Below the pieces are notes generated by a model that was given only the letters and a program-made list of their open reading frames with translations, made no database searches and was not told the origin of the DNA. The translations under genes were made by a program, and so were the position numbers. From NCBI RefSeq assembly GCF_002976435.1, contig NZ_PUGF01000016.1, positions 1-64,000 of the forward strand: a DNA stretch of 64,000 bases. The letters are read 5' to 3'. This stretch comes from Solimicrobium silvestre. GTDB taxonomy: Bacteria; Pseudomonadota; Gammaproteobacteria; Burkholderiales; Burkholderiaceae_D. This document shows, one piece after another, positions 8,312 to 30,694 of the stretch (position 1 is its first letter; every line of letters begins with the position of its first letter).

Positions 8312-8317
8312 CGATTT

Positions 8318-11989: not shown

Positions 11990-12697
11990 CTATGTACTCG
12001 CACTGTTGTTCACCAGCACCGGTTGTCCGCGGTAATAATCCGGGAAAATATGTTTCAGGTTATTTATTTTCGGTAAATCGTTGTAGACAATATAAGGATA
12101 TGTGGGGTTATGAATCAGAAAATCTTGATGGTAATCTTCGGCCGGATAAAAACCTTCAGATGCGCTGACAGCCGTGACGATGTCATGTTGATAGGCATGC
12201 GATTTAATTAATTGCGTGATGTAAGTCTGCGCCACTTTTTTCTGCGCTTCATCGGTATAGAAAATAGCAGAACGATATTGTGTTCCGCTGTCCGGGCCTT
12301 GACGGTTTAGCTGTGTCGGGTCGTGTGCTACCGAAAAGAAAATATGCAGCAATTCACCGTAAGAAATTTCTGCCGGATCGAAGGTGATTTGTACTGATTC
12401 GGCATGCCCAGTGCGCCCCGAGCTGACTGTATCGTATTGTGCAGTGGCCTTGCTGCCACCGGCATAACCGGACACTGCTTTGCGCACACCGCGCACATGT
12501 TCAAACACTCCTTGTACGCCCCAGAAACAGCCACCAGCAAATACCGCCGTTTGCAGTGGTCCCTTCGTCTTCGGGCTGTCAAACTCGGGAGCGGCGATGA
12601 CAGTCGGGGCTTCCGCTGCGTTGCAGGCTACCGCTGTCAGGCAAAAAAGCAGCGCGATGACGCTGCGGGAAGTTAGTAGCGAGTTTGGAAATTTCAT
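11990..12697 (-). CDS. msrA: Secreted peptide-methionine (S)-S-oxide reductase
   Basis: Reduces the S epimer of methionine sulfoxide in proteins. The catalytic GCFWGVQ motif (family GCFWG) lies at residues ~57-62 and is followed by VRKAVSGYAGG, HAESVQITFDP, the FFSVAHDPTQLNRQG core and QYRSAIFY. The N-terminus is a signal peptide with a weak lipobox-like VAC, so the enzyme acts outside the cytoplasm, as a soluble or possibly lipid-anchored protein. A good ribosome binding site (AGGAG) precedes the start. It lies 33 bp downstream of msrB in an operon dipZ-msrB-msrA. Confidence 0.95.
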   Translation of the reverse strand: MKFPNSLLTSRSVIALLFCLTAVACNAAEAPTVIAAPEFDSPKTKGPLQTAVFAGGCFWGVQGVFEHVRGVRKAVSGYAGGSKATAQYDTVSSGRTGHAESVQITFDPAEISYGELLHIFFSVAHDPTQLNRQGPDSGTQYRSAIFYTDEAQKKVAQTYITQLIKSHAYQHDIVTAVSASEGFYPAEDYHQDFLIHNPTYPYIVYNDLPKINNLKHIFPDYYRGQPVLVNNSAST

Positions 12698-12730
12698 GTC
12701 GGACTCCTGAATTAGATAAGTTAAATAACT

Positions 12731-13342
12731 TTAGGCTCTGGCCGCAAAAACCAGCGCTACTGAGTTCATGCAATACCGCAAGCCGGTTGGTTCCGGACCA
12801 TCGTCGAATACATGGCCGAGATGCGCATCGCATAACCGGCATGAAATGGCATCACGCTGCATGCCTAAAGTGGTGTCGGTATTTTTGATCACATTGACGG
12901 CAGAAATCGTCTGCCAAAAACTGGGCCAACCGGTTCCTGATTCAAATTTTGTTTTTGAATCAAATAACGCTGTGTCGCAACAAATGCAGTGATAAATGCC
13001 GTCTGCATGATTGTTCCAATACTTGCCGCTGTATGGGCGCTCGGTTCCCTCATGACGTGTTACTTGGTAGGCAGCAACCGGCAAAAGCTTGGCCCATTCC
13101 GCGTCACTTTTGACCAGCTTGGGTAAGCGCACTACGCCGGTACTTTTTCCTGCTGCAGAAAAATTTTCAATCGCGACCAGAGAAGTTTGGGGCGGCGCCG
13201 AGAGTGCCGCTGCTATCGCTCTTGCGAGTGGCGCATTTGCTAGCAAAGCACCTATGCCAACCAACATAACGGCACGACGCGTGGGTGCAATCTGGTTAGC
13301 CGGTTTATCAGCCTGCTGTTGAGGTTTATGAATTGAGATCAT
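12731..13342 (-). CDS. msrB: Secreted (Tat-type) peptide-methionine (R)-S-oxide reductase
   Basis: Reduces the R epimer of methionine sulfoxide. The MsrB fold is complete: WNNHADGIYHCICC and CRLCDAHLGHVF supply the two CxxC zinc sites, SGTGWPSFW the substrate region and RYCMNS the catalytic Cys near the end. The N-terminus has a twin-arginine TRRAVM followed by a hydrophobic segment and an ARA cleavage site, suggesting Tat export of the folded zinc protein. It begins 9 bp after the stop of the DipZ gene and is followed by msrA. Confidence 0.95.
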   Translation of the reverse strand: MISIHKPQQQADKPANQIAPTRRAVMLVGIGALLANAPLARAIAAALSAPPQTSLVAIENFSAAGKSTGVVRLPKLVKSDAEWAKLLPVAAYQVTRHEGTERPYSGKYWNNHADGIYHCICCDTALFDSKTKFESGTGWPSFWQTISAVNVIKNTDTTLGMQRDAISCRLCDAHLGHVFDDGPEPTGLRYCMNSVALVFAARA

Positions 13343-13351
13343 CTTGCCCTC

Positions 13352-15169: not shown

Positions 15170-15594
15170 ATCGGCACCTAAAATTGGAAAAATTGTAGAT
15201 TCACACTTGGGAAGCATTTCTTAACCATAGGTCGGATTAGCGATCAAAACCTTACAAGGCTGTAGAAGTATTTAAAACTTCACACGTGAAATGGGCTTAC
15301 GGTGTTTGGAATAAAGTGTTTTGTTTTTGTTAATGCAGTGCAGGCTGGAGGGGCGCAGGAAAAAGAGATGGGCGCCATCATTGATGAAATGCTGGATTGT
15401 GTAACAGATAACGCCATTAGGACGCTGGCTAAAGCTTTGCCGCTGAGGGCAATGTAGTGGAAGAGAGCCGTAAATGGCTCTCTAGGAAGTCAATCTGGAC
15501 CAATTCTAAAACGTGGATGATGTTATTTAAATGTCGCGCCCGACTTTAATGGCCGCTTCATCAACTAACATCATCCAGCTAATGCATCCCTTCG
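15170..15594. other. Intergenic region, possibly one very short gene
   Basis: Promoter region of the dipZ operon and downstream region of the S41 gene. A 51-codon frame with a GTG start at 15302-15457 (+ strand; it contains EKEMGAIIDEML and ends LPLRAM) has a protein-like composition, but I recognise no family and see no ribosome binding site. It could be a remnant. Confidence 0.3.
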
Positions 15595-17241
15595 TTAATC
15601 GAGCTGCTTGCGCAGTATCCGATTTTCCCGAGCCGGTGAGCGTTTTAAGATCGGCTCATTTTGCTTCAGTTGTTTCAGTATTGTGGCTGATGGAGCGGGG
15701 CAGGTGCCGGTGTTTCGATACTGCAATGCGGCAGCAAGTCTTGCTTCGGTCGGGTCACCCAACTGTTTGCTGAAGTCGTCGCCGATCGGGCAACCGGGTA
15801 AGTTGTTGGCGGTGCTGCCGGTGCCGCCGGGAATGAAGCCGTCTGCATAGGCACCGAATCCGAGGTTATTCACGCCTTCAAACTGGATCGCGAAATAGGT
15901 GGTGCTGCAATTGTCTTGCGGGAAAAAGCCGTAAGGTTTGCCGCAGGTGGTCGCGCCGATTTGGATAACTTTTACGCCGACGCCAAGCAATCCATTCATG
16001 ATCGCCTCGCTCGCCGAGCAGGTACCGGCTCCAGTTATTACATACACGGTGGATAACCCCAATTGCGGCAATGCTTGTCCTGCAGGGATCGAGGTCGAGA
16101 AACCTTGCGACACACTGAAAAACGGGACAGTTGTTTGTGCTGTAGTGAAGTTGAATGGATTTTTGTTGTTGTAGGTATCTTGCTCAAAGACGGTTCCTGA
16201 TGTGGCGGCCGGGCTGGCAATCATAAAGGCCATTTCGCTGGCGAGGTCCAGAAAGCCGCCGCCGTTGTAGCGAATATCCAGTACCAGATCGCTAATGCCT
16301 GCGCCGTTGTTTGCTGCCTTGAGCTGATTAACCGCTGCAATCAGTTCGCTCTCGGCAGTGGCAATTTGATCGTTGTAAAGAATGTAGCCAACTGAAGTAT
16401 TTGGGGCTGGCAAGGTGCCGACGTTCTGTACTGGCGTCAAAGTGATATTGGCCGCCGTCATGGTAATGGTGCGCGGCGTGCTGCTGCCCTGATCTAGAAT
16501 CTGGAAGGTATAGGAAGTACCCGCTACCGGAGAAAACAGACCTTCGTTCAGCGTCGCAAGATCAGTGCCGTTGGCGACATCCACCCCGTTGACCGTCAAG
16601 ATTTGCGCGCCCCGTTGCACGTTGTTTTGGGTCGCCGTAGTTCCTGGTGATGTGTATGCCACCAAAGCCTGTCTTGGCGGACTAGCAGAAAGAAGCGCAA
16701 CTTCAAAACCGAACCCTGCCTGATTACCTGCAGCGGATAAAGCCTGCCAAGCAGCTGTCGTGTAAGTAAAGTGAAATTGATCCTTGGGTTTGCCGGAAGC
16801 CGTGAATAGCGGCGTGCGCTGGCTGTTGAAATAAGCGTCAACTACATCGTAGTTACTGGCCAGGGTTTCAGTTGATTGGCCGTTGGTGGTCGGGTTGACG
16901 TAAGGCACGGTTGCATTGAGCACATAAGGGCTTGAGCTCACTACTGGCACTTCGTTATACCAGAGGTAGGTTTCATTGACGTACGACGCAATCCAGGCCA
17001 TTTCCGTGGTTAATGATCCCTGAACATCATTATATGGCTGACCGGTGACGGGATTGATGGTGCCAGCCGGACGCGGTACTGCACATTGTTCGGCAAGACT
17101 TGTCGATGGGGGGAAGCCTGTACTGCCCGAAGTCCCTGAACTCGTATTGCTGGAGCTGCCACCACCGCCGCCACCGCAGGCGGACAAAGTCGCAGCCAGC
17201 AGCATTGGAATAATTATTTTTTTCAATTTTTTTCCTATCAT
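15595..17241 (-). CDS. S41 family (tail-specific/CtpA-like) protease, lipoprotein
   Basis: 548 aa. A lipobox LSAC near residue 22 is followed by a Gly/Ser linker, so it is a lipid-anchored periplasmic or surface protein. A PDZ-like domain occupies roughly residues 165-265 (GFGFEVALLS, GAQILTVNGVDV). The S41 core has DLVLDIRYNGGGFLDLA and TCSASEAIMNGL near 410, which supplies the nucleophilic Ser, then KVIQIGATTCGKPYGF. Several cysteines (AGTC, TTC, DNC, GC) suggest disulfides. It lies alone, 150 bp downstream of the S9 peptidase gene on the same strand. Confidence 0.85.
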   Translation of the reverse strand: MIGKKLKKIIIPMLLAATLSACGGGGGGSSSNTSSGTSGSTGFPPSTSLAEQCAVPRPAGTINPVTGQPYNDVQGSLTTEMAWIASYVNETYLWYNEVPVVSSSPYVLNATVPYVNPTTNGQSTETLASNYDVVDAYFNSQRTPLFTASGKPKDQFHFTYTTAAWQALSAAGNQAGFGFEVALLSASPPRQALVAYTSPGTTATQNNVQRGAQILTVNGVDVANGTDLATLNEGLFSPVAGTSYTFQILDQGSSTPRTITMTAANITLTPVQNVGTLPAPNTSVGYILYNDQIATAESELIAAVNQLKAANNGAGISDLVLDIRYNGGGFLDLASEMAFMIASPAATSGTVFEQDTYNNKNPFNFTTAQTTVPFFSVSQGFSTSIPAGQALPQLGLSTVYVITGAGTCSASEAIMNGLLGVGVKVIQIGATTCGKPYGFFPQDNCSTTYFAIQFEGVNNLGFGAYADGFIPGGTGSTANNLPGCPIGDDFSKQLGDPTEARLAAALQYRNTGTCPAPSATILKQLKQNEPILKRSPARENRILRKQLD

Positions 17242-17394
17242 GTTTCGAGTAGCGGCTTTTTGTTAAGTCAGAAATTAAGCCAAACATCAGATTGGCCGAG
17301 CGTTCACAAATCGGGCACTTCTTGTGCATCGTAAAGTCGCCAAGAATACTCGGTTTGTGAACTCCCTACCGCGGTTGATTGCGTAAGGTTTTTT

Positions 17395-19974
17395 TTAAGG
17401 CGTTACCGCTACTGGTTTTGATGCGGCGTTTTTAACATCGGCGTTTTTCACATATTTATCGAACCAACGAATCATCTCGTAAATAAGCTGCTCATTCGAT
17501 TCCATCGCTGTATACCAATGCGGTTCATGCGGCAACATCACTAAGCGAGTTGTACCGCCGTTACCGCGAATCGCTTCGTAGAGTTTGCTCGCTTGCAAAG
17601 GTGTTGTGCCCGGATTGGCATCGTCCGCACCGTGCACAATCAGCAGCGGTGTTTTGAGTTTATCGGCATAGAAAAACGGCGACACTTTACGATAAACATC
17701 GCTGGCTTCCCAAACCGATCTTTGTTCACTCTGGAAACCGAACGGCGTGAGCGTCTTGTTGTAAGAACCGCTGGTAGCAACACCGGCTCGGAACAAATCC
17801 GAATGTGTCACCAGGTTGGCAGTCATTAACGCGCCATGACTGTGTCCGGTAACGCCGATTCTGTCCGGGTCGGCAACACCTAAGCGCACCGCTTCATTGA
17901 CTGCCGCTTTGGCATCCGCAACGAGTTGCTCCATATATGTGTCATAGGCCTTTTTAGGATCGCCGACGATAGGAAATGCCGCGTTGTCGATGATCGCGTA
18001 ACCCGCCAACAGCAACAGTTTGTATTGACGTAAGCGCGTGAAAGTTGCTTGCGAGCCGGTTACTTGCCCAGCCTTGGATGCATCGGCATAGTCAAGTGGA
18101 TAGGCGTACAAAATGGTAGGAACGCGCGTTCCGTCTTTGTAACCAGGTGGTGTGTACAAGGTAAAAGACAGATCAAGTCCATCGGCGCGTTTGTATTTAA
18201 CCAGGCGTTTTTTAATCTCTCTCACTTCAGGTGTTGGGTCTGGAATGTGAGTAATCGCAACGCTGGTAGATGCATACGCAGCTTCACCTTTTGGCGCAGT
18301 GATTGCTTTTCCCAGAGTTCGGGCAAACGCGTTCGGCGTATCCGTTATCGATTGACTCCAGGTTAAAAAAGTCTGCGTGTCTGATCCATTAAAGGACAAA
18401 AACCGTTCATAAGAAGTTTTGTCGCTGCGGAACAGGCGTTCTACTTTATGCGTTTTAAAATTGAATCGATCCAGGAATGGGCGATCTCCGTCTGGCGAAG
18501 CACCAGCGCCGGATAAGTAGATTGCATCACCATCTTGACGCATTACCCACGCACCGTTTGCCAGTTGGCGAGTTACCGGCATGCCAGGGTTTTCATATTT
18601 TTCATCGGTAGACATATCCCAGAACAGGCGCGGCTTGGCCGGTTTTTCATCCACGTTGATTGTAAAACTGCGTCTCCAGTGACGGTTGTTATCGTACTCC
18701 GTCAAAATTGCCAGGCTAGGCTGTTCGCTCCAGATGAATCCGACATAACGCTGTTCGGTGCGCGTGATTTCAACTGCCGGTGATGTAAACGGCGCTTTCA
18801 GCATCAGCACTTTATCGCGTGCCGGAACCTTGACGTTCCAGTCACCGCCGTCTAATGCTTCAGCCCAAATCAGTGAGGCAGGATCGGTAGCACGCCAGGA
18901 AAATGCGCGTGGACCAACTGGCACGCCGTGAATCGGCACGCGATCGGCGAGTGGATTTGATGCGATATGTTGCTTGCTTATTTGCTCGCTAGTAAGTGCT
19001 GACCAGACTTCAATTGTTTTTGGAAAGCGCTCATAAGTTGTTACGTAAGAATAAGGCTTTCTGATCGTGGAAACCAACAAGTGCTGTCCATCCGGTGCCA
19101 AATCGACTGTTTCATAATTACCCGGTTTACCGATTGGTGTAATGACTGAACTGCTGACATCAACCAAGGCAAGTTGTGAAGTGGCGTAGTAATCGAATAG
19201 GTCTTCATCATGCTTGTTGCCAAGCGTATCGCGGTTTTCGTACGTGCTGCTTTGTCCTTTTGAACCGTCAGTTTCCTGAATGCTCGGACCGCTAGGAATG
19301 AGTGGTTCAGGAGGTGGCGGCGGCATACCATCTGGGACGAGTTTGACCAAGAGTGTTTTTTGATCAGCCATCCATTGCAGTTCGTCGTTGAGCATGGGGT
19401 TGAGGCGTACGCCCGGAACGCGATGTACTGCACCAGTCATTCCATCACCAACCCAGAGCTCGACCGCCTCGGCTGCAATATTGATAAAGGCGAAGTGCTT
19501 CCCATCCGCCGCCCAAATCGGCACACCAGGGCATGCGCCTTCAGGAAGTGCTACAGGCGTTTGCTTGCCGTCTGCAATGCGCACCAGTTCGAAGCTACTG
19601 GCACAAGGAGTAATTCCATAACCGCCGGGAGTGTCGTGTTTGCTGTGATTTTTTGATTCGACACGCACACCGGCAAGGCGTAAGAAAGGAGTTGCCACGC
19701 GTGAAATGGATGGGTAATCCTGCATAGAAACCAGCAACATCATGTCTTGCGTCGGGCTGACACTGGCTGTCGGTGGTGAGGGCGCGTGCATCACATCTAA
19801 AATATTTTTTGGCGGCTGATTGTAGCCAGATAGTGCTGCTGACGCTGTTGCTGCATTTGGTTGAGCATCCATTGACGTAGCGATTGAACTCGCTGGGGCA
19901 AGCAAGAGCATGGATAAGCTCATTAGTACTGCACGGCTTTTGGGTAGTCGTTTAACTGACCAGACTGATTGCAT
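17395..19974 (-). CDS. S9 family (prolyl oligopeptidase/glutamyl endopeptidase-like) serine peptidase
   Basis: 859 aa with a signal peptide (LMSLSMLLLAPASSIA). The N-terminal ~550 residues form a repeated beta-propeller-like region that includes a WAADGKHFAFINI repeat. The C-terminal alpha/beta hydrolase has the nucleophile GHSHGA near 711, the acid HGADDAN near 782 and the base PHEPHWY near 818. The layout resembles the S9D glutamyl endopeptidase group, but specificity cannot be read from the sequence. Probably periplasmic. A strong AGGAGG site precedes the start. Followed by the S41 protease gene. Confidence 0.88.
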   Translation of the reverse strand: MQSVWSVKRLPKSRAVLMSLSMLLLAPASSIATSMDAQPNAATASAALSGYNQPPKNILDVMHAPSPPTASVSPTQDMMLLVSMQDYPSISRVATPFLRLAGVRVESKNHSKHDTPGGYGITPCASSFELVRIADGKQTPVALPEGACPGVPIWAADGKHFAFINIAAEAVELWVGDGMTGAVHRVPGVRLNPMLNDELQWMADQKTLLVKLVPDGMPPPPPEPLIPSGPSIQETDGSKGQSSTYENRDTLGNKHDEDLFDYYATSQLALVDVSSSVITPIGKPGNYETVDLAPDGQHLLVSTIRKPYSYVTTYERFPKTIEVWSALTSEQISKQHIASNPLADRVPIHGVPVGPRAFSWRATDPASLIWAEALDGGDWNVKVPARDKVLMLKAPFTSPAVEITRTEQRYVGFIWSEQPSLAILTEYDNNRHWRRSFTINVDEKPAKPRLFWDMSTDEKYENPGMPVTRQLANGAWVMRQDGDAIYLSGAGASPDGDRPFLDRFNFKTHKVERLFRSDKTSYERFLSFNGSDTQTFLTWSQSITDTPNAFARTLGKAITAPKGEAAYASTSVAITHIPDPTPEVREIKKRLVKYKRADGLDLSFTLYTPPGYKDGTRVPTILYAYPLDYADASKAGQVTGSQATFTRLRQYKLLLLAGYAIIDNAAFPIVGDPKKAYDTYMEQLVADAKAAVNEAVRLGVADPDRIGVTGHSHGALMTANLVTHSDLFRAGVATSGSYNKTLTPFGFQSEQRSVWEASDVYRKVSPFFYADKLKTPLLIVHGADDANPGTTPLQASKLYEAIRGNGGTTRLVMLPHEPHWYTAMESNEQLIYEMIRWFDKYVKNADVKNAASKPVAVTP

Positions 19975-20236
19975 AAAACCTCCTTTTTAATTTAGTACAT
20001 TACTCCCACACACATTAATCTGCTCACGATATTCTTTGCTTGTGAGCAAGCTTGAATTGTGTATCCTGCCATAAACTAACTGGCAATGCTATCTCGAATT
20101 CGACATGGGTTTGATAGTCCGTTTTAGGTGGCTAGCGGCTGTTACATCTGTCGCCACTTATGAAGATTTTGACAAACCAGCACCAGCAGAGGGATACTTC
20201 GGCTCTTGTTTGGATGCATCTCAAAGGAAAAGTAAC

Positions 20237-21352
20237 GTGGAATTATTAAAACTCGATTGCCTGGGGCAACCGCTAATATTGACTGGCTCAATGGCGGGTT
20301 GGCAGCAATTATTTTTGGGCAGTACCCTGGTTTCGCAACTGGCTGCTACGGCGGACACCGAAAACCGCCGCGTTCATGAATTTGAATTACAGACCGAATT
20401 GAAGCTGAACACCAACCCGGAACAGCCGGATTTAAGCAGATTGCGTTGCCGCTTGGAAAGCTCGTTGATCTGGCAACCATTTAATCTGGATTACCAGTTT
20501 TTCATCAACGATGAATTAGTCGCTCAAGGCCAGCGCAACACCAAAGATATTGAGCAACAAGTGCCAACCCAGACTGCCCAAGCCAGCAAGCCATTTAGTT
20601 TTATTGGTCTCGGTGCGTTATTGATGAAGTTATTAAAAAGCGCCAAGGTCGTTAAGGTGATCTTGGCTGGCGTTAGTCTGGCGGCTTATTCGTGGTTGTT
20701 TTCGTTTCAGTTTGCGGTGGCATTAATCACTTGCCTAGTGTTTCATGAGTACGGCCATATTCGTGCCATGCGCTATTTTGGAATGAAGACCAAAGGCATT
20801 TATCTAATCCCGTTTTTGGGTGGAGCAGCAGTCACTGAAGATAAAATCAATACGCGTTGGCAAAACGTAGCGATTTCTATGATGGGGCCGTGTTTTGGGC
20901 TGCTAATGTCGCTGGCCTGCATGGTGGCTTTTTGGTTTAGCGACAATATGTTCTTTGCCGGTTTGGCGGTATTTAATGCCATGTTTAATTTGTTCAACTT
21001 GCTGCCGGTGCTGCCGCTGGACGGTGGGCATATATTAAAGAGCATCAGCTTTTCCATGAATAACACTTTTGGTATTGTGCTGTGCATTCTCGGCGCGCTC
21101 ATCGGTGTGGTGCTGTGTTACACCTTTCACCTGACTTTGCTTGGCTTCTTTCTATTGATAGGTTGCCTTGATATTTTTATGGAATGGCGTACCCGCCACA
21201 ACAGCCATTTGCTGCCGTTAGATCGTTACGGACAGATATTTTCAGCAGTGTGGTATTGCGCTTTGGTGGCCAGCTTAATTGGGATAATTGTTTATTTCGC
21301 CGGTCATGGTGATGAGATGCTGACTATGCCTATGCATATTTTGAAAAGCTAA
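20237..21352 (+). CDS. M50 family membrane metalloprotease (site-2-protease-like)
   Basis: 371 aa from the GTG at 20237. A cytosolic N-terminal ~130 residues is followed by about six transmembrane segments. The zinc-binding HEYGH motif sits in the membrane near residue 169 (CLVFHEYGHIRAMRYFG) and the third ligand in LPVLPLDGGHIL near 260. These are the two signatures of intramembrane site-2 proteases, which cleave membrane-bound substrates. I prefer the GTG because AAAGG lies 8-9 bp before it and the family-like VELLKLDCLGQPL starts there; a longer ATG start at 20105 exists. No obvious substrate or sigma/anti-sigma pair is next to it. Confidence 0.8.
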   Translation: MELLKLDCLGQPLILTGSMAGWQQLFLGSTLVSQLAATADTENRRVHEFELQTELKLNTNPEQPDLSRLRCRLESSLIWQPFNLDYQFFINDELVAQGQRNTKDIEQQVPTQTAQASKPFSFIGLGALLMKLLKSAKVVKVILAGVSLAAYSWLFSFQFAVALITCLVFHEYGHIRAMRYFGMKTKGIYLIPFLGGAAVTEDKINTRWQNVAISMMGPCFGLLMSLACMVAFWFSDNMFFAGLAVFNAMFNLFNLLPVLPLDGGHILKSISFSMNNTFGIVLCILGALIGVVLCYTFHLTLLGFFLLIGCLDIFMEWRTRHNSHLLPLDRYGQIFSAVWYCALVASLIGIIVYFAGHGDEMLTMPMHILKS

Positions 21353-21381
21353 TTCAGGACAGGTCAGCTTAATCGAAAGAA

Positions 21382-21906
21382 TTATTCAGGTGGAAAGTGT
21401 AATTGAGAAAAAGCACGACCAGCCTGTATCGCTCGGCGTTCTATTTCGGCACTTGATGTTATCCAGTCTTTTTGCTCAAGAAACAGTAAAAAGGCGCGGG
21501 TACTCACCTTACGACAATTATCCGGTAGCAAAAAACTGGCACGGGCAATTTTATGATCTTCAAACAAAAATACACCGTTTTTTAGCGGCTTCGCTAAAGC
21601 AAAGCCGTTCATTACTTCCTGAATTGCCAATTCGCCCAAATTAGCCGTTTTCACTAAAGAGTTAATTTTCTCTTTCTGATAATGCGCAAAAGTCTTAGTT
21701 GGCAAGACGGATAATTGCTTGTCAACAACCCATTGCGCCAGCTTTTCACTAGTCGGCGTAACATTGCGGGTCACTTCATGCAACACCATATCCACCAACT
21801 GTACTGACCAACCCGGTAGCAACAATACATCCAGCGCATCAGCGTACGCCAACGTAATTAAGGGGCCGGCGTCGGGTAATAAAATAATATTGGTTGAAGC
21901 AGTCAT
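21382..21906 (-). CDS. PIN-domain-like toxin of a toxin-antitoxin pair
   Basis: 174 aa. The N-terminal LLPDAGPLITLAYADAL is the first acidic motif of PIN-type RNases. VDMVLHEVT supplies an acidic residue, NLGELAIQEVM a conserved Glu and FLFEDHKIARAS the later Asp. Family knowledge: such proteins cleave RNA and are held inactive by the partner protein. It begins 12 bp after the stop of the ribbon-helix-helix gene at 21919-22266, the standard antitoxin-toxin order. Assignment rests on motifs and context; activity is not shown. Confidence 0.7.
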   Translation of the reverse strand: MTASTNIILLPDAGPLITLAYADALDVLLLPGWSVQLVDMVLHEVTRNVTPTSEKLAQWVVDKQLSVLPTKTFAHYQKEKINSLVKTANLGELAIQEVMNGFALAKPLKNGVFLFEDHKIARASFLLPDNCRKVSTRAFLLFLEQKDWITSSAEIERRAIQAGRAFSQLHFPPE

Positions 21907-21918
21907 GGCCGGATCAGC

Positions 21919-22266
21919 TTAAGGAAGTAGTGTATGCAAATCATTGGCCATGCTTTGCGTTACCTCTTCCGGCAACCTCGGCATTGGCAAATGACTTTGC
22001 GCCATCAGCAAAAATAAGTCTTCTGCGCCAGTAATTCCCAACTGTGTCATCACCGCGACATCATCAATACGACCAAGAGAAAAATCCAACAAGGTTCTGA
22101 AATTTTGATTATTACCAGCTTCTGCCGCCTCAAACGTTTCGACCAGATAACGCAATTCGGCATTAAACAAAGCATTAATTGAGGTATCCGTCTTGGCAGC
22201 GATGATCTTTACACGTTTGAGTAAATCACGATCAACGGAACCGGTGAAATTGACTGTGGTTGCCAT
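21919..22266 (-). CDS. Ribbon-helix-helix antitoxin
   Basis: 115 aa from the Met at 22266, which has a strong AAGGAG site. The first ~50 residues (VNFTGSVDRDLLKRVKIIAAKTDTS, in two parts: a short strand and two helices) are an Arc/MetJ-type DNA-binding fold; the remainder would wrap the PIN toxin. Such proteins repress their own operon. A palindrome at 22290-22320 just upstream is a likely operator. A decayed second copy of this gene start and its promoter lies at 23975-24079. Confidence 0.7.
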   Translation of the reverse strand: MATTVNFTGSVDRDLLKRVKIIAAKTDTSINALFNAELRYLVETFEAAEAGNNQNFRTLLDFSLGRIDDVAVMTQLGITGAEDLFLLMAQSHLPMPRLPEEVTQSMANDLHTLLP

Positions 22267-22289
22267 GATGAGTCTCCTTTTGATTTTTA

Positions 22290-22320
22290 CACATAAATAA
22301 GTGTAGCACATGATTATGTG
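22290..22320. promoter_or_regulatory. Candidate operator of the toxin-antitoxin operon
   Basis: Inverted repeat CACATAA (22290-22296) and TTATGTG (22314-22320) with a small GTG-TAG-CAC palindrome between them, 24 bp upstream of the antitoxin start. Autoregulation through such sites is usual for ribbon-helix-helix antitoxins. The left arm is also kept in the decayed copy near 24070. Confidence 0.45.
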
Positions 22321-22425
22321 GTGCAATAAGGCTCTTCCTTGGTTAAATTTGATTGAGCCTCTTTTCACGTTTAAAGAACTGGCCTGGCGATAGTAGAGGT
22401 TTGAATATTTAGTGGCAATATCATT

Positions 22426-22977
22426 CTATTTTTCGTCAGGAACGATCGTACGTTTTCCTATCCACATACGCTGGAAAAGACCATTTTTCAACACGAAATG
22501 GTGATAGAGCGCTGCCACAACATGCCCGGTAATAAGAAGGGCCAATAACGTTGCAAGAATCGCATGGGCCTGGAACGTTGGGAGTACTGAGAAAGTGTCA
22601 GGCAGAGCGCCATTGGGCTGAAATGCGCCGCGAATCACGTAGCCGGTGGAAAACCCGGTGGCGATCATCAGGAACACGATCACATATAAACTTAAGTGCG
22701 TAATCGATGCAAGCCGATTGAGCCGAGGCGAACCACTTTCCGCCGGGGCCGGACGGGCACTTGTAGTGCGGATAATGACGCGCAGGATCATCAATACGAA
22801 CACGAACATGCCGCCCGCCATGTGCAACTTCAGGATGTCGAGTTTCTTCGGATCGATGTTCGGCATTTCTTCAAGCACGAAGAAGCCAACGCACATAAGG
22901 CCAATGATCATCAGCGCAATCAGCCAATGCAGCGCGACGAGTACCGGCTGGTATCGCGAAGCGATGGCGCGGCTCAT
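22426..22977 (-). CDS. Cytochrome b561 family membrane protein
   Basis: 183 aa with four transmembrane helices. Histidines in VALHWLIAL, LKLHMAGG, QAHAILA and GHVVAALYHH match the haem ligands of the diheme cytochrome b561 (YodB/CybB) family, which passes electrons from quinol or superoxide across the inner membrane. The start at 22977 overlaps the stop of the SRPBCC gene in an ATGA, so translation is coupled. Last gene of an ArsR-SRPBCC-b561 operon. Electron donor and acceptor unknown. Confidence 0.85.
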   Translation of the reverse strand: MSRAIASRYQPVLVALHWLIALMIIGLMCVGFFVLEEMPNIDPKKLDILKLHMAGGMFVFVLMILRVIIRTTSARPAPAESGSPRLNRLASITHLSLYVIVFLMIATGFSTGYVIRGAFQPNGALPDTFSVLPTFQAHAILATLLALLITGHVVAALYHHFVLKNGLFQRMWIGKRTIVPDEK

Positions 22978-23381
22978 GACAGTCCCCCAACCACGCGATC
23001 GAGCGCGGCGAAGAATTTTTGCCACCCGTATTTTGCACCCTCGTAGGCCTGTTGCTGGTCTGGCCTGAAACCCGACTGTTCCATGCGCAGATGGGTCCCC
23101 GTACTAGTAGGAGTGAGAGTCCAAGTGACAACACTCTTGAGACCAAGGGCTTCCCATGCGTAGGACAGCGCTTTGTTTGGTTCGACCGCGAGAACGTGGC
23201 AGTGTACGACACCCCAGTCTGCGCGAAGATCGAAACGGTGGCCCACGATCGGCTGGAAGTCGTTCTTCATCAGCCATTCTTCAATGAGCGGGCCTTGTGT
23301 GAGAGCACGCCAGATTTTTTCGAGAGGATGCGGCATTTCCCTCTCAACAATCAACGTTTTGGTTTCATCGGTTTGCATCAT
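22974..23381 (-). CDS. SRPBCC (AHSA1-type) domain protein
   Basis: 135 aa, a START-like helix-grip fold: VEREMPHPLEKIWRALT at the N-terminus, EEWLMKNDF, then strands ending HLRMEQSGF and a long C-terminal helix (GWQKFFAALDRVV). Such proteins bind hydrophobic ligands; together with an ArsR regulator they are a common two-gene module whose ligand is usually unknown. Overlaps the ArsR gene upstream and the b561 gene downstream by about 4 bp each, indicating a tightly coupled operon. Confidence 0.87.
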   Translation of the reverse strand: MMQTDETKTLIVEREMPHPLEKIWRALTQGPLIEEWLMKNDFQPIVGHRFDLRADWGVVHCHVLAVEPNKALSYAWEALGLKSVVTWTLTPTSTGTHLRMEQSGFRPDQQQAYEGAKYGWQKFFAALDRVVGGLS

Positions 23382-23701
23382 TGATCCATCCTTTTTAATA
23401 AGTCTTCCAAACGGTCAAATTGGTTATCCCAGAAGGTCGAGTAAAAATTGATCCAGTTAATCAGTGGCGCCAGTGCCTTCGGCTCGGCGCTGTAATAGGT
23501 CTCACGACCTGCACGTCTGCCGCGAACCAAACCAGCTTGATTGAGCGCGGCAAGGTGTTTCGAAATCGCAGGTTGTGATACTCCAGATGGATCCGTTAAG
23601 GCATGAACAGTCATTTCGCCGTCTCTGCTCAAGCGCTCAAAAATGGCACGCCGGGTTGGATCAGACAAAATTTTCAGAACGGCTGTTGGTTCGGCGTGCA
23701 T
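23378..23701 (-). CDS. ArsR family transcriptional regulator
   Basis: 107 aa winged helix-turn-helix: LKILSDPTRRAIFERL, recognition helix SQPAISKHLAALNQAGLV and wing RRAGRETYYS. No metal-binding CxC motif in helix 3, so it probably does not sense arsenite. The FYSTFWDNQFDRLEDLL tail matches the ArsR group that accompanies SRPBCC proteins. First gene of a three-gene overlapping operon and its probable autoregulator. Confidence 0.9.
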   Translation of the reverse strand: MHAEPTAVLKILSDPTRRAIFERLSRDGEMTVHALTDPSGVSQPAISKHLAALNQAGLVRGRRAGRETYYSAEPKALAPLINWINFYSTFWDNQFDRLEDLLKRMDQ

Positions 23702-24349
23702 TGCTAATCCTCATCTAGGTAAACTTTGTTTCGATTTTCATGAAACTGCTGGTTGTAATGAAGCATAGCCAACTGGTTATGAATAATCAAGGAATATTTT
23801 CCGCACGTTTTGAACTCAATTTAATCGATTTTCGTTACTTTTTTGTTGGTGCGACAAGGAAGAATTTAACGCCTTTTTACGATTTCGCCGCGATGCATTT
23901 AGACCTGTGGAGCTCTAATTGTTGCGTCAACTGCTCATTCCAATTCGCGTAAAGTTTTAATGCTAAATACCTAGCTCGGCAGCGATGATCTTACAAGCTT
24001 GAGTAATTTACGAACAACGAAATCTTGAAATTGATTGTGGTTTTCATGATGATTCTCATTTTGATTTTTACACATAAAGAGAGAGTTGCCAGTTGAAATA
24101 TATTTCATTTTATTAACATAATTGATAGAATGGAAATAGCGCAGTAGGTGAGCGATTTACTAGCTCAGTGCATTGTGAATGACAAAATTGGCACAGTGCG
24201 GACATGCGAGCGTCTTCTCAGTAACGGTCGCTCATTCAAAATTGATGGAGCACTCAAATGGGCGATAGTCTTCCACGCTTTGCAACATCTATTACTCCAG
24301 ATTCATGCAAATATCGCTGCATTAATCATAACCAACTCAGAAAAATTAT
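23702..24349. other. Intergenic region with a decayed antitoxin copy
   Basis: Apart from the antitoxin remnant at 23975-24079 I see no supported gene. Two + strand frames (23740-23952 and 24148-24369) lack ribosome binding sites and family resemblance. The region upstream of 23972 should hold the ArsR operon promoter. Confidence 0.6.
23975..24047 (-). pseudogene. Decayed duplicate of the antitoxin gene start
   Basis: Minus-strand sequence from 24079 to 23975 aligns to 22297-22192, covering the promoter left arm, leader and the first ~25 codons of the antitoxin gene. It begins MKTTINF against MATTVNF in the intact gene, then a one-base deletion shifts the frame and it stops after 18 codons; a second indel follows near AAGATC. 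The remainder of the gene and the toxin are absent. Same orientation as the intact copy, 1.8 kb away. Confidence 0.75.
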
Positions 24350-24721
24350 ATGATCTCCAAAATTACTAACGCAGTTGCAATTTGCGGCATTCTCATGTTG
24401 TCCGCCTGCTCAACTCAGGGAACTTTCGTAATTCCAGAGGGAAGTAAACTCTACCTGGGAGGACGCCCTGAACCAGTTAAAGTTGAACCTGATGGGACAG
24501 TAGATACTTATGCATTTGGATGGGAATCCATGGGCGTACCACCGAACAAAGGCATTCAATATCGTTTGGAAGAAGATGGTAAAACAACGCAAGAGGGGCG
24601 TCTGCGTCCAGTTTTGCGGGTGAAGGCAATTTTCCTACCGCCCATTTTTGGAATTCTTGCGGTGCCAACTGGTCTAAACCCTAACATTACCTACAATCTT
24701 GTTACAGGTAAGCAAGAGTAA
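24350..24721 (+). CDS. Small lipoprotein of unknown function
   Basis: 123 aa. Signal peptide with lipobox LSAC near residue 20, so the mature protein is lipid-anchored. The remainder contains a VIPEGSKLYLGGRPEPVKV strand region and a hydrophobic IFLPPIFGILAVP segment near the end. I recognise no family. No strong ribosome binding site. It is probably a stand-alone gene. Confidence 0.6.
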   Translation: MISKITNAVAICGILMLSACSTQGTFVIPEGSKLYLGGRPEPVKVEPDGTVDTYAFGWESMGVPPNKGIQYRLEEDGKTTQEGRLRPVLRVKAIFLPPIFGILAVPTGLNPNITYNLVTGKQE

Positions 24722-24901
24722 ATGACGTATTAGGTTATAGAATAATCGCCTCCTAAATAGTATTCAGCTAGGTTCGTTGAATCCTTTTTAGAGGTGAAAG
24801 ACCACATTCGCCGTACGAACTTGACGGTCAGATAGCATATACAATTTATTTAGATTATAAAAACACCCAATTAACAAAATCGGACCTGTCAGGGAAACAG
24901 T

Positions 24902-25459
24902 ATGACTATCCAAACAAAAGTAACGCTCAATTCCTGGCTAATAATCGGCGTTTTTCTTTCCCTATTGACCAGTTCGCTGCAAGCCTTTGGTGATTCAACT
25001 ATTCAGAAATGCAAAAGATCCGACGGCTCCATATTTTACCAACAAGATGTTTGTCCGCCCGGCACCAATAGCAGCACCTTTGCTGTAAATTCAGACCAAT
25101 CGGACAGTCTGACACTGTACGCCAACAGCGGCCATCAATACAGCACCACGTTAACTATTAATGGTGTTACGGTGCCGGGTTTCATTGATACCGGCGCAAC
25201 CTTTGTGGTTGTATCACTGGAAACTGCGATCAAGATGCATTTGGCGGGCGAAGGTTTTAGAGCGCAATATATGCAAACTGCAAATGGCGTAATCAGATCG
25301 GCGAATAAGACGATTCCGGTGATTAAGGTTGGAAAATTTGAACTGTATAACGTTGAAATTTCTATCGTTGCCAATGCGCCGACCCTGATCGGCATGAGTG
25401 CGCTGAGTCAGCTTAAATTTTCCAATGAAAATGGCAATATGACCTTAAGTAAGCGTTAA
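24902..25459 (+). CDS. Secreted retropepsin-like aspartic protease with DUF4124 domain
   Basis: 185 aa. A signal peptide (to ~residue 30, ending QAFGDS) is followed by a DUF4124-like segment (KCKRSDGSIFYQQDVCPPGT, two Cys). A clan AA retropepsin domain follows, with the catalytic motif FIDTGATFVVVS near residue 97 and the second half IGMSALSQL. Bacterial single-lobe retropepsins act as dimers. Periplasmic proteolysis is inferred; the substrate is unknown. Monocistronic. Confidence 0.82.
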   Translation: MTIQTKVTLNSWLIIGVFLSLLTSSLQAFGDSTIQKCKRSDGSIFYQQDVCPPGTNSSTFAVNSDQSDSLTLYANSGHQYSTTLTINGVTVPGFIDTGATFVVVSLETAIKMHLAGEGFRAQYMQTANGVIRSANKTIPVIKVGKFELYNVEISIVANAPTLIGMSALSQLKFSNENGNMTLSKR

Positions 25460-26330
25460 ATTGGCAACTATATTTTTAACGTAAATATGTTGAGTTACAT
25501 CTCACAGAAGTAAATTTTTTTAAAAACTAATGTGCGCAGCCATTTAATTTTTGAGCGACTGGAGGCGGCACGAAAATTTTATTCACTCTACTCACTAAAA
25601 AACGACAATCCGTAAAAATTGAGAATAATCGTCATATCAACAACCTAGATTCATCAGGCCATTAAATTCGTTCTAATGCGAACCCCGCACCTTAATTTCC
25701 TCCTTCAAAAAACGCCACACCAGCGGATCAGTCATTGCGGCAACATTAATTCGCATCCGCGTAGATGGTTGCTGGTTCGGTGAAAACATGCTTCCCGGTG
25801 ACAGTAAAATTCCTTGTTCTAATGCCGCCTCGGCCAGCGCGTTGGTGTCGCAGCTGGCGACGATAAATAGGTAATTTAGTTGACGAATTTTTCGATAAAT
25901 TAGCTCAAATACTTGTATTTTGGAGAAGATAATTTTGACGATTATCTTAATAAACTATCAAACGGATATGACTAAGCCATGACAATTGTGGTGCAAATTC
26001 TAGATTTTTTAATAAACTGACAAAATAATTGACTATTAATTATCCGTGATAGTAGTGTCTGCCTTGCTAAAGGATTGGGCGCTCTTATCGCAATGGCTAG
26101 CTGATGCCGTATCTCGTTGGGACAGGATTTCCCTGATTTCCCCTTAGCACAACCTCAAATGTATTACCGAAGAAAGCATCCTTTTGGATCTAACGCGTGG
26201 CAGCGCCTTGAGCCGCTCGTGATGATGTGGAGGATGCTTAACGCCTTAACGAAAGTCGTTTGAGTAGTTGTTACAGGTCGACGTTCGTCTAAGAAATTTA
26301 CTACCACTTAGTTAAATTCACGGAGAAAAA
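25460..26330. other. Intergenic region between retropepsin and S53 genes
   Basis: Holds a 3'-terminal fragment of a MocR-type gene (25673-25866) that duplicates the end of the intact gene at 29270. The part from 25870 to 26330 is AT-rich up to about 26050, then more G+C-rich; it must contain the S53 promoter but I cannot pick one with confidence. Confidence 0.6.
25673..25866 (-). pseudogene. 3'-terminal fragment of a MocR-type regulator gene
   Basis: Encodes in frame the last ~60 residues of a MocR aminotransferase domain, from CDTNALAEAALEQG through MTDPLVWRFLKEE to a stop. By my alignment 164 of 185 bases match the intact gene end at 29270-29461, yet only about two residues differ; most changes are silent. 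The upstream 85% of the gene is missing. The fragment therefore came from a functional diverged allele rather than from a decayed local copy. Same orientation as the intact gene. Confidence 0.85.
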
Positions 26331-28448
26331 ATGTCACGAAATCAGGGAGTTTTAATCAAAATGCGCCCCTTGGCGTTTGTTATTGCGGCAACGTTTGCCG
26401 TCAGTGCACAAGCGGGCACGACGTCTACTTGGGTGCCGACGGCCACCAAGTCATATTTGAACACCCACCCGGCTCGGGCAAGTGCAATGGCTCAGCAGGT
26501 GATGGAATTGTCTGCCGGTGCACCTGTTCAAATTGCGGTGAGCCTGAAACTACGCAACAAGGGGGTGCTCAACGCACTGAGCGCCAGCATAGGGGCCGGT
26601 GGCAAGCAATATTTGACCCCAACGCAATTTGCGGCACAGTTTGGACCGACGCAAGCGCAGGCCAATGTGGTCGTTTCTTATTTGCAAGCGGCCGGTTTTC
26701 GAAATGTGACGGTCGCACCGAATCGCATGCTGGTGACCGCCGACGGTAATGCAGCGACGGTGAAGACCGCGTTTAATACCACGTTGATCAGTTATGCCAA
26801 GAACGGCAGGCAAGTTTATGTGAACGCTGGCGACGCGATGGTGCCGCAAGTTCTGGCCGATGTTGTGCTGGCAGTTCATGGTTTACAGACTGCCGATCTT
26901 TTGCTGCCCTTGACCCAGCGTGTATCAAGTAAGCTGCAGATGCAAGCCGTGGTAGCCGGTCATAATGGCACGGATTTTTCAACCATGTATGACGCCGACA
27001 GCTTGCCGGCTGCAACCAATATCTCGATTGCGATCATTGCACAGGGCGATATTTCACAATCGCTGATCGACTTGAATGCGTTCGCGTCGCAGAGCGGCTA
27101 CCCTGTAGTCAGCACACAGGAAGTCGACACCGGCACCAAAACCAGCGATACCACTGGCACCGATGAGTGGGATCTCGATAGTCAATCTGCTCTCGCCGCA
27201 GCCGGCGGCAGCGTTAAGAAGATGATTTTCTACGTAGCCCCCACCTTGGCTGATTCCGACCTCGCCATCGCATTTAACCGCGCCGTAACCGATAACCTTG
27301 CCAAAACGATTATCGTTGCGCTCGGCGAATGCGAATCGATAGCGCAAGCCAACGGCAGTATGGCAACCGAAGATCAGATCTTCCAACAAGCGATGGTCCA
27401 GGGGCAGGTATTTTCAGTCGGCGCAGGTGATGTCGGATCGCAAGAATGTCCTGCGCCGTCGACCGGTCAAAGTTATCCGGCGACCTCTCCCTATGTGATC
27501 GCCGTTGGTGGCACGACCCTGAATTCGACCGGTACCGTGTACGCCTCCGAGACCGTATGGAGCGGGTCCGGCGGTGGAGCGAGCATCATCGAGCCAGCTC
27601 AGTCGTGGCAAGTGAATGCTGGTGTGCTGACCGGTTCCAATCGCGGTGTGCCTGACATTTCCTTTGACGCCGATCCGAACAGCGGCTTCATGGTCATGAG
27701 CAGCGGTGTGCCGACGCTGATCGGTGGCACCAGCTTATCGGCCCCCTTATTTGCTGGCTTCTGGGCCCGAATTCAATCGGCGCATGGTAACGCAGTAGCT
27801 TTCCCTGCCTCGCTGTTTTACAGCAACAACGCGGCTGTTCTCGCGGTTTACCATGACGTAACAAGTGGCAGCAATGGCGCCGCCACCGCCAAGGCCGGCT
27901 GGGACTACGCATCGGGTTGGGGCAGTATGGACGTTGCTAAAGTGAATGCATTAATTAGTACCGCGCCACCACCACCACCACCACCACCGACTAGTATCAT
28001 CGTCAACGGCGGTTTTGAATCCGGTAGCACGGGTTGGAATGACGCAACCGGCGATATCGGAATATGGAGCAATGAACCCGCCTTTGCAGGTTCTTACGAC
28101 GCGTGGATGGGCGGTATTATCAATTCCAACGAAAATCTGTACCAGAAGATCACGATTCCGGCCGCGGCTAAATCAGCGAACCTGGCTTTCTACCTGCATA
28201 TCGACACGCAGGAAAGTGGTGCCAAGGCGTATGACATGCTCTATGTTCAGGTGAGAAATACGAGCGGTACTTTGTTACAGACCCTGGCTACCTTTAGTAA
28301 TGCGAATGCAGCGTCAGGATATCAATTGCACAGTTACGATCTGAGCGCCTACAAGGGTCAGGCAATCGAAATTTATTTTAATTCGACCAATGACCACGAG
28401 TATCCGACTTCCTTCGTGATCGATAACGTCAGCGTGACAGCCCAGTAA
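26331..28448 (+). CDS. Secreted S53 peptidase (sedolisin/kumamolisin) with C-terminal accessory domain
   Basis: 705 aa, exported by a signal peptide cut near SAQAG. Residues ~40-190 are the pro-kumamolisin activation domain (GGKQYLTPTQFAAQFGP, then TADGNAATVKTAFN). The S53 catalytic domain has the Glu/Asp pair in TDEWDLDSQS near 278-282 and the nucleophile in GGTSLSAPLFAGFW near 467. The calcium site region is AGWDYASGWGSMDV. After a run of eight prolines near 545 comes a ~155-residue beta-sandwich domain (IIVNGGFESGSTGW ... FVIDNVSVTAQ) that may bind a substrate or surface. Family members are acid-active endopeptidases. Ribosome site GGAG precedes the start. Base composition is visibly richer in G+C than its neighbours, and a MocR gene fragment lies upstream, so it was probably acquired. 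Confidence 0.93.
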   Translation: MSRNQGVLIKMRPLAFVIAATFAVSAQAGTTSTWVPTATKSYLNTHPARASAMAQQVMELSAGAPVQIAVSLKLRNKGVLNALSASIGAGGKQYLTPTQFAAQFGPTQAQANVVVSYLQAAGFRNVTVAPNRMLVTADGNAATVKTAFNTTLISYAKNGRQVYVNAGDAMVPQVLADVVLAVHGLQTADLLLPLTQRVSSKLQMQAVVAGHNGTDFSTMYDADSLPAATNISIAIIAQGDISQSLIDLNAFASQSGYPVVSTQEVDTGTKTSDTTGTDEWDLDSQSALAAAGGSVKKMIFYVAPTLADSDLAIAFNRAVTDNLAKTIIVALGECESIAQANGSMATEDQIFQQAMVQGQVFSVGAGDVGSQECPAPSTGQSYPATSPYVIAVGGTTLNSTGTVYASETVWSGSGGGASIIEPAQSWQVNAGVLTGSNRGVPDISFDADPNSGFMVMSSGVPTLIGGTSLSAPLFAGFWARIQSAHGNAVAFPASLFYSNNAAVLAVYHDVTSGSNGAATAKAGWDYASGWGSMDVAKVNALISTAPPPPPPPPTSIIVNGGFESGSTGWNDATGDIGIWSNEPAFAGSYDAWMGGIINSNENLYQKITIPAAAKSANLAFYLHIDTQESGAKAYDMLYVQVRNTSGTLLQTLATFSNANAASGYQLHSYDLSAYKGQAIEIYFNSTNDHEYPTSFVIDNVSVTAQ

Positions 28449-28491
28449 TCACACATCCCACATAATCGTAGATATTCTATGGAGAACCTAA

Positions 28492-28980
28492 ATGAATAAA
28501 ATTTTGATAGCTTTGTTTTTGATGTTGCAGTCCTTTTACGCGTTGGCTAGCGATCAAAGCGACTGCGCTGCCGGAGCGGGTGCATATATATCCGGAATCG
28601 TGGTCAGTGGCCCAGTCTTTCAGGCCGCATCGTCGACCTTGCAAGGTGTACAGTTGAGCCACACCCATGTGCAGCTCTTGTCTGACCAAGACGGCCAGAC
28701 TTATGACGTCGCGATCGACAACGTCTACGCGGTGGACTATGTTTTGAATGCCACCACCATTCCAAAGTCGCTCGCTGCAATTCACGTGAATGACCGTCTC
28801 TCGACGTGCGGAGCCTTATATACCAGCGGCGGCCTTGGCACCCATTGGGTGCACAATAATTGCAACGTTCCAGGGACCGCGGCTGCACCCAACGGCTTTA
28901 TCAAGAAGGCACCGACGCGGGGGCCTGTGTATGCCAACCTCGAACGTAGCATGACCTATTGCTATTTGTGGGGCGAATAA
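28492..28980 (+). CDS. Small secreted cysteine-containing protein next to the S53 protease
   Basis: 162 aa with a signal peptide (LIALFLMLQSFYALAS). Mature part contains four cysteines (residues ~25, 106, 124 and 158), which could form two disulfides. I recognise no family. It lies 43 bp downstream of the S53 gene with its own GGAG site and is followed by a hairpin at 29003-29031, so the two genes form a transcription unit. A secreted inhibitor, chaperone or co-factor of the protease is a reasonable guess, but nothing in the sequence proves it. Confidence 0.75.
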   Translation: MNKILIALFLMLQSFYALASDQSDCAAGAGAYISGIVVSGPVFQAASSTLQGVQLSHTHVQLLSDQDGQTYDVAIDNVYAVDYVLNATTIPKSLAAIHVNDRLSTCGALYTSGGLGTHWVHNNCNVPGTAAAPNGFIKKAPTRGPVYANLERSMTYCYLWGE

Positions 28981-29002
28981 ATCTGAAATGAGTTAGGCCC
29001 GA

Positions 29003-29031
29003 CACACCGATCGTCTGAGGCTATCGGTGTG
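29003..29031 (+). terminator. Hairpin after the S53 operon
   Basis: A perfect 9-bp stem CACACCGAT/ATCGGTGTG with an 11-base loop, 22 bp after the stop codon. No T-run follows, so it may be a weak or factor-dependent terminator. Confidence 0.5.
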
Positions 29032-29269
29032 GTGTAATAACAGAGGAAAAACGATTAGGGGCGTAAAAAACTGAATGCACAAAGTCGACATACTATAAAG
29101 CTCGACTGGGTTTTCAACCCAGTATCTATAAAAACAAATGCAAGTTTGAATTGCTGTTTCCAGGAACCCCGTTTGTCGCTTCAGGGCGTAGTCCGATTAC
29201 TTCCCACTGAAAAAAATGAAAATAATCGTCGGGTAATCTGGTTCGATTTATCGGGGTATTTATTTCGTT

Positions 29270-30694
29270 TTAATGCGAACTCCGCACCTTAATCTCCTCC
29301 TTCAAAAACCGCCAAACCAGTGGATCAGTCATCGCTGCGACATTAATCCGCATCCGCGTTGATGGCTGCTGATTCGGTGAAAACATGCTGCCGGGGGACA
29401 GTAAAATTCCTTGCTCTAATGCGGCCTCGGCCAGTGCGTTGGTATCGCAACCGGCGTCTACCCACAAAAACATACCAGCCGGGGTGAAAATGTCGACTTT
29501 GACGCCGATGTTTTCTAGCTGTTTGGCAGTGGAAAGCCTGACTGGATCTAGTTTGCTGCGCACCCGTTCTATGTATTTACGATAGTGACCTTCGGATAAA
29601 ATTTTATACACCACGCGCTCGCCGATTTCGGTGGTGGTTAAGGTCGATAACATTTTGCGATCGGATAAGCGACTGGCTAATTCGTGCGACGTTGCGATGA
29701 AGCCGACCCGCAAATTGGCAGCTAATAATTTGGAAAATCCGCCCAAATAAATCACTCGGTTTAATTGATCCAAGCTAGCAACCCGGGTCGCTGCCTGAAT
29801 GCTATTACCGGGATGTAAATCGCTGTAAATATCGTCTTCCACAATAATAAAATCATGCAGTTCAGCCGCTTTTAAAACCTGAAAGGCCTTGGCTGCCGAC
29901 ATCGATGTGGAGGTAGGATTGTGCAGAACCGAATTGGTGATATACAGCTTGGGTTTGTGCAGCGCTGCCATTTCACAAAGCGCGGCAATATCCGGGCCGT
30001 CTTGTTGGCGCGGGATGCCGATCACTTTTACGCCCAACACCGCGAACGAACCAAACATTAAAAACCACGCCGGGTCGTCGACTAAAATTGTGTCGCCTGG
30101 GTGAGCAAATTCACGCGCGACTAAATCCAGGGCTTGCGTCACGCCGGAAGTGGTGACGATTTGCTCGGGCGTGGCGGCAATTTCAAGTTCGGCCAAACGC
30201 AGTTGCAATTGTTGGCGCAGCGGATAAAACCCTTGTGGCGTGCCGTAATGCAGCAATAAATTTTGATTTAAACGGCTGACGGCGCGTAAGCCATTCGCGA
30301 CCAACTCACCGTCCAGCCAATCGTGTGGCAAAACGCCGGAACCGGGCATTTTATGGGGAGGCATTTGTCGGAACATATTGCGCACCAGCCACACCACATC
30401 CAGTTGTTGGGGATTAGTTGGCGCTTGCGGAGTAGCGGTGAGCGGTGCTCTTTCGCGTACAAAGAAACCCGAACCGCGCCGCGATTCTAAATAGCCGCGC
30501 GCCACTAATCGGTCATAAGCTTCCACCACCGTAAATCGGGAAACTTCGCAAGTCTCGGCATAACGCCGGATAGACGGCATACGTGCGCCGGTGCGTAATA
30601 ATTTATCGTCAATTTTGTTTTCGATAATTCGTACAATCTGATCGACTAAGGTGTCGGTGGAGTCGCGTACTAATGCTTGTGTTGGGCTGTTCAT
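29270..30694 (-). CDS. MocR/PdxR-type GntR regulator with aminotransferase-like domain
   Basis: 474 aa. An N-terminal GntR winged helix (residues ~10-80: RMPSIRRYAETCEVSRFTV, RGYLESRRGSGFFV) is fused to a fold-type I PLP domain with the cofactor Lys in GGFSKLLAANLRVGF near 320. MocR proteins use PLP or an amino acid adduct as signal and bind direct repeats. It diverges from the dehydratase gene at 30832; three copies of an 11-bp repeat lie between them (30709-30776). It probably controls that catabolic operon and itself. Its last 60 codons are duplicated at 25673-25866. Confidence 0.93.
   Translation of the reverse strand: MNSPTQALVRDSTDTLVDQIVRIIENKIDDKLLRTGARMPSIRRYAETCEVSRFTVVEAYDRLVARGYLESRRGSGFFVRERAPLTATPQAPTNPQQLDVVWLVRNMFRQMPPHKMPGSGVLPHDWLDGELVANGLRAVSRLNQNLLLHYGTPQGFYPLRQQLQLRLAELEIAATPEQIVTTSGVTQALDLVAREFAHPGDTILVDDPAWFLMFGSFAVLGVKVIGIPRQQDGPDIAALCEMAALHKPKLYITNSVLHNPTSTSMSAAKAFQVLKAAELHDFIIVEDDIYSDLHPGNSIQAATRVASLDQLNRVIYLGGFSKLLAANLRVGFIATSHELASRLSDRKMLSTLTTTEIGERVVYKILSEGHYRKYIERVRSKLDPVRLSTAKQLENIGVKVDIFTPAGMFLWVDAGCDTNALAEAALEQGILLSPGSMFSPNQQPSTRMRINVAAMTDPLVWRFLKEEIKVRSSH

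Follow-up and report, generated by a model that had tools for sequence, protein, structure and literature searches.

The window, as the whole 64,000-nt stretch of DNA analysed here is called, carries the gene of a MocR-type regulator combining GntR and class I/II aminotransferase domains; beyond its 3′ end lie an S53 protease gene and a second ORF, a displaced copy of the mocR end, a gene for a clan AA (retropepsin-like) aspartic protease and, about 22 kb away, htpG (Table 1). As an earlier note on this DNA had proposed, the S53 gene and its partner are bracketed by direct repeats of the mocR 3′ end, in which 206 of 246 bases are identical (84%) without a gap. The dimensions given there are slightly altered by realignment: the repeat ends at 25859 rather than 25866 and extends 59 nt beyond the stop codon, further than was claimed; its coding part amounts to 59 codons plus the stop rather than 60 residues; and the similarity over 25673–25857, put at 164 of 185 identical bases, holds with a recount of 163. 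When compared by BLAST with the remaining window, the fragment matches the resident mocR end at E 3.7e-73 and everything else at E ≥ 0.58. Within its own genome, a query spanning 25600–26330 matches only itself and 29211–29456, so that no third copy of the tail is found at E ≤ 0.001.

Table 1. Features between htpG and mocR, in window positions.
Feature	Position	Strand	Basis or remark
htpG, follows mocR in many relatives	5077..6984	-	single copy in genome
htpG promoter, sigma-32-like, CTTGAAA...CCTCAT	7069..7094	-	retained; interval's left edge just outside it
Lineage-specific interval between htpG and mocR	7110..29210 (ends approximate)	.	
Clan AA (retropepsin-like) aspartic protease, left of the displaced tail	24902..25459	+	
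Displaced copy of the mocR end (last 59 codons 25676-25852, stop codon 25673-25675, 59 nt of 3′ flank)	25614..25859	-	repeat search, codon alignment, substitution counts
Putative non-homologous junction, end of mocR homology	25859..25860	.	repeat search, alignment
Serine-carboxyl protease of family S53 (sedolisin-type); activation domain, extra C-terminal region	26331..28448	+	
Small protein, 162 aa, no known family	28492..28980	+	N-terminus signal-peptide-like by eye
Counterpart of the displaced copy in intact mocR (3′ end, 3′ flank)	29211..29456	-	repeat search, ungapped comparison
Intact MocR-type regulator, 474 aa, GntR and class I/II aminotransferase domains	29270..30694	-	

The codons of the fragment differ from those of the resident gene by 18 silent changes and one replacement (Gly/Ser), with no indel, and the stop codons of the two tails differ as well (TAG/TAA). 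The corresponding distances, dS 0.63 against dN 0.007, supply the Ks/Ka-type comparison that the earlier note had called for and bear out its statement that nearly all changes are silent. Under neutral decay, such an 18:1 pattern has a probability of 9e-11 from the site counts, rising to 8e-8 with a silent fraction of 0.35. Similarity continues beyond the stop codon, where 41 of 59 nt of the 3′ flanks are identical; mismatches are spread throughout the repeat, whose longest identical run is 17 nt, and 26 of 30 bases agree at its truncated end. There, at 25859, mocR homology stops abruptly within the reading frame, the broken end pointing to the S53 side. A source elsewhere in the same genome could be discarded, since its next mocR-like gene is 39% identical at the protein level. 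In a tree of 58 codons, fragment and resident tail are sisters (support 0.916, 89% identity), and identity with the closest of 80 other loci is 74.7% for the fragment and 76.4% for the resident tail. These sequence comparisons identify the fragment as the end of a mocR allele that had diverged while functional and was cut off recently. Were the lone replacement due to decay, the neutral change accumulated after truncation would amount to at most about 3.5%, making the cut much younger than the split of the alleles; the displaced tail itself is probably without function.

The surroundings of mocR were compared on 80 contigs, the best-ranking ones among 232 confirmed relatives, including four congeners; the genus is here Sapientia (Oxalobacteraceae), and among named mocR genes that of Sapientia aquatica, of this family, comes nearest (93% protein identity). 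Within the fetched flank, htpG is met in 44 of the 80 loci, which are scorable, no htpG being found up to the end of the flank in the remaining 36. In 27 of these 44, the two genes adjoin (51–530 bp), and in 17 the gap is occupied by other genes (1.2–9.4 kb). Three of the four congeners have htpG directly after mocR, at distances of 135, 89 and 123 bp. In the fourth, a Sapientia metagenome-assembled genome (L068, 2177–4086), mocR is followed not by htpG but by 1.9 kb with genes for an exonuclease (RNase_T) and a DUF294 nucleotidyltransferase; the adjacency is thus not universal in the genus, and its presumed ancestral order is based on three congeners. No second mocR tail was detected in the relatives' loci, of which 78 could be searched and 68 reach at least 4 kb downstream. 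Self-searches yielded matches of 26–30 nt in three loci (two in L105, one each in L131 and L136), which are too short to be the tail of a gene. The empty site predicted by the earlier note, with mocR directly followed by the retropepsin side, is seen in none of the 80 loci; this does not refute the prediction, as the four congeners are too distant to show the state just before the event, most silent-site distances to them being saturated.

In a correction to the scope of the earlier note's reading, the S53 pair proves to be no lone insertion but the last 3.3 kb of the lineage-specific interval of about 22 kb. Besides the S53 pair, this interval holds phnA, a ydcF-like gene, a PBP gene, msrA/msrB, a dipZ-like gene, genes for S41, S9 and M50 proteases, toxin–antitoxin (TA), cytochrome b561, SRPBCC and ArsR genes, a lipoprotein-like ORF and the retropepsin gene. 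DNA-level matches in the congeners are found for phnA in four of four, and for the S41 protease and the retropepsin in three of four each, the retropepsin homologue sitting away from mocR in all three; besides these there are a partial match to the antitoxin gene in one congener (G004) and a few shorter matches. Ten stretches of 13–18 kb around the phnA, S41 and retropepsin homologues contain none of the other window genes searched for. Equally, none of the window's interval genes lies between mocR and htpG in the 17 filled loci (E ≤ 1e-8). The inserts were itemised for 12 of these 17, and the five insert proteins scanned for domains are a cysteinyl-tRNA synthetase, a GGDEF protein, a TonB receptor, an AcrB-type efflux pump and a YhcG-type nuclease; with such unrelated contents, the interval is a permissive spot rather than one conserved island. 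Among the 18 ORFs of the interval that were counted as genes, Pfam detects no recombinase, transposase or integrase domain, and no inverted repeat of at least 20 nt joins the two ends of the cassette, which argues against a composite transposon or IS-borne cassette. An RNA or tRNA gene as target was discarded too, the one tRNA gene, for tRNA-Arg at 40465–40541, being far away. A literature search on insertion hotspots gave nothing specific among the matches listed, and one on Sapientia aquatica found no paper.

At the left edge of the interval, the htpG promoter, a sigma-32-like pattern, has been kept (Table 1). In relatives this pattern starts 25 nt (L067) or 15 nt (L097) past the mocR stop codon or overlaps it (L069), and it is absent from the 3′ flanks of both mocR tails in the window. 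Since the two tails share a flank that lacks the promoter, the two alleles probably diverged when the site was already occupied; by this comparison, something had probably parted mocR from htpG in the common ancestor of both alleles.

Concerning the cargo, the S53 product combines an activation domain (PF09286, Pro-kumamolisin, E 1.4e-24) with a catalytic domain, residues 208–542 aligning to sedolisin (PDB 1nlu and 1ga1, E 1.8e-81), and thereby belongs to the S53 family. The alignment retains the EWDLD, SxGDxG-like and GGTS regions, which we take to be the sites of the Glu/Asp/Ser residues and of the oxyanion Asp, and the gene probably encodes an active, secreted acid protease. Unlike sedolisin, the protein has about 150 extra C-terminal residues, which match the C-termini of other large proteins in genomes of the family. 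Its own genome contains four other S53-type matches, one of them with an internal stop. For the 162-aa partner, searches of Pfam, NCBIfam and the PDB gave no match, and its family is scattered over 20 of 195 family genomes, the present one included; an S53 match lies near it at one of the 19 other loci (about 1.5 kb inspected on each side, less at contig ends), and a conserved S53–partner cassette was accordingly rejected. Apart from the mocR tails, the cassette has no close DNA match in Sapientia; three weak matches concern the S53 gene sequence: two, at 64 and 73%, lie in its own genome, and the third, 45 nt long, in a congener (G001). A role of the cassette in defence was dismissed: PADLOC has no match for the S53 protease or its partner, and among ten proteins scanned the retropepsin alone matched, weakly (PEPT_D, E 7e-4). 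The cassette is G+C-richer than the window, as had been noted (S53 54.6%, partner 53.2%, window 47.0%), but so are mocR (50.9%) and the fragment (53.2%), which makes G+C weak evidence for a foreign origin of the cassette.

With a fragment that derives from a functional, diverged allele, and with no second tail in the 78 searchable loci of relatives, the repeat is best accounted for by exchange with a sister lineage, in line with what the earlier note had suggested from the silent pattern. More precisely, we consider it somewhat likelier than an even chance that the locus combines two alleles of a single, already occupied insertion site, brought together in one such exchange. One lineage would have carried mocR, its 3′ flank and the S53 pair, and the other an allele, mocR′, with its own version of the flank followed by the retropepsin and further genes. 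DNA with one arrangement would have entered a cell with the other, pairing by homology on one side, either along mocR and its upstream genes or on the htpG side, and joining without homology on the other, inside mocR′ near 25859/25860. This would leave mocR intact and both cargoes in tandem, with the last 59 codons of mocR′ stranded between them. Such a course would be homology-facilitated illegitimate recombination (HFIR), a process put forward for gene 3′ ends displaced in T6SS and Rhs loci, and two of its marks are present: an orphan tail from a diverged, once-functional allele, as the 18:1 ratio and the dS and dN values indicate, and an apparent non-homologous joint on one side, where mocR homology breaks off inside the frame. 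The donor would be a sister lineage outside the compared genomes, as the two tails are sisters in the tree and no other locus exceeds 76.4% identity. As to polarity, mocR and the S53 pair may have come in, cutting a resident mocR′, or the left part with the mocR′ tail may have been the newcomer; neither parental arrangement was found in any genome, the four congeners being too distant for this purpose.

Several points speak against merged alleles: neither parental arrangement was found in any genome, htpG does not follow mocR in one congener (L068), and HFIR is rare where it has been measured, at 3e-10 per recipient in Escherichia coli conjugation, according to the available text of PMC3240628, and several orders of magnitude below homologous recombination in three transformable genera, according to that of PMC5361080. 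The silent pattern and the common 3′ flank would be explained equally well by tandem mocR genes, arising by duplication or as a xenologous copy and held under selection for long, of which a later deletion and the insertion of the S53 pair left the tail; a tandem duplication since lost could look alike. We regard this course as unlikely, though worth keeping in mind, because no lasting duplication appears in the 78 searchable loci (including the 68 with at least 4 kb downstream), and because it takes a separate truncation and insertion, whereas one junction suffices for the merging of alleles. The geometry of intact gene, cargo and truncated original tail, with the 3′ end of a gene as target, would also suit a site-specific element that brings a replacement tail in the manner of genomic islands, the fragment then being the displaced original. 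Such an element should have left an identical att core, given how recent the truncation is, but the longest identical run is 17 nt in a repeat 84% identical overall, and none of the 18 interval ORFs taken as genes has an integrase domain; site-specific integration, an integrase-borne island included, was therefore rejected as very improbable.

Hardly more probable is an assembly chimera, formed by a false join at 25859 between contigs of two related species, although the allele of a second species is exactly what a misjoin would be expected to leave and short-read assembly seems likely, six contigs beginning at the same offset of one repeat. Against it stand the single htpG, the one intact mocR of this type and a contamination of 0.6%. 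The junction is, moreover, flanked on both sides by copies of a 185-bp repeat (130–314 and 55709–55894) that are 94% alike, compared with 75–85% to other Sapientia copies, a weak argument in that some copies of the same genome are 78% alike and a donor could carry the repeat too.

Merged alleles would make the locus ordinary in kind: the type of mechanism is already known, and no new class of element is involved. In the T6SS clusters of Vibrio cholerae, displaced 3′ ends and orphan immunity genes are likewise attributed to an incoming module anchored by homology and joined illegitimately at its other end, the proposal being that the old 3′ end is pushed back when this module arrives (available text of PMC5361080), a scheme with which an incoming mocR and S53 pair would agree. 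Here, in contrast, the split gene encodes a MocR regulator rather than an effector, there is one clear displacement, and the tail has no likely function. HFIR has the same combination of one homologous and one non-homologous joint that is proposed for the window, and was shown by experiment (PMC3240628), whereas here the process is deduced from one product. Exchange also leaves direct chromosomal duplications in the merodiploids formed upon transformation of Streptococcus pneumoniae; these span about 100–900 kb and arise by unequal crossing-over between repeats (available text of PMC3784515), in contrast to the 246-nt diverged partial copy found here. The locus would be a legible fossil of one cross-species exchange, showing how far the alleles had diverged, where they were joined and a bound on the time since truncation. 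By its example, the stretch separating a gene end from a heat-shock promoter may be permissive enough to grow to 22 kb without an identifiable mobile element, which helps to explain how genes are gained at fixed chromosomal sites without a recombinase.

A second repeat lies in the TA region, where the 5′ end of the antitoxin gene (22192–22297) recurs at 23970–24078 over 106 bp, about 85% alike with two single-base gaps, with no further match in five Sapientia genomes. The duplicates bracket the ArsR, SRPBCC and cytochrome b561 genes. The likeness to the mocR repeat pointed out in the earlier note extends to the geometry, the broken end again facing the cargo; the common mechanism it envisaged is not established by a copy that is frameshifted and decayed, with two one-base indels, many replacements and an in-frame stop after 18 codons. 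This remnant may be either a degenerate paralogue or a scar of greater age. The broader idea that the mocR 3′ end serves sister Sapientia lineages as a recurrent docking site, where foreign cargo accumulates with no encoded recombinase and a gene tail is left behind each time, the antitoxin copy being an older scar of this process, we consider improbable.

Two dispersed repeats were observed besides. An intergenic element of about 130 bp (about 11722–11870 in the window), with the conserved blocks TATACTGTC, CATTAGATACGTTAAAT and GGGAGTATATGAA, has at least a dozen diverged copies in its own genome; its exact pattern occurs seven times there and in none of 18 other genomes, and at the end of eight copies stands a start codon, from which ORFs of 6–50 codons follow. 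The 185-bp repeat is present in dozens of copies in the genome, with weaker ones in two of the four congeners, and lies near the start of contigs C3, C15, C21, C23, C44 and C67 at an identical offset; it is perhaps tied to a mobile element.
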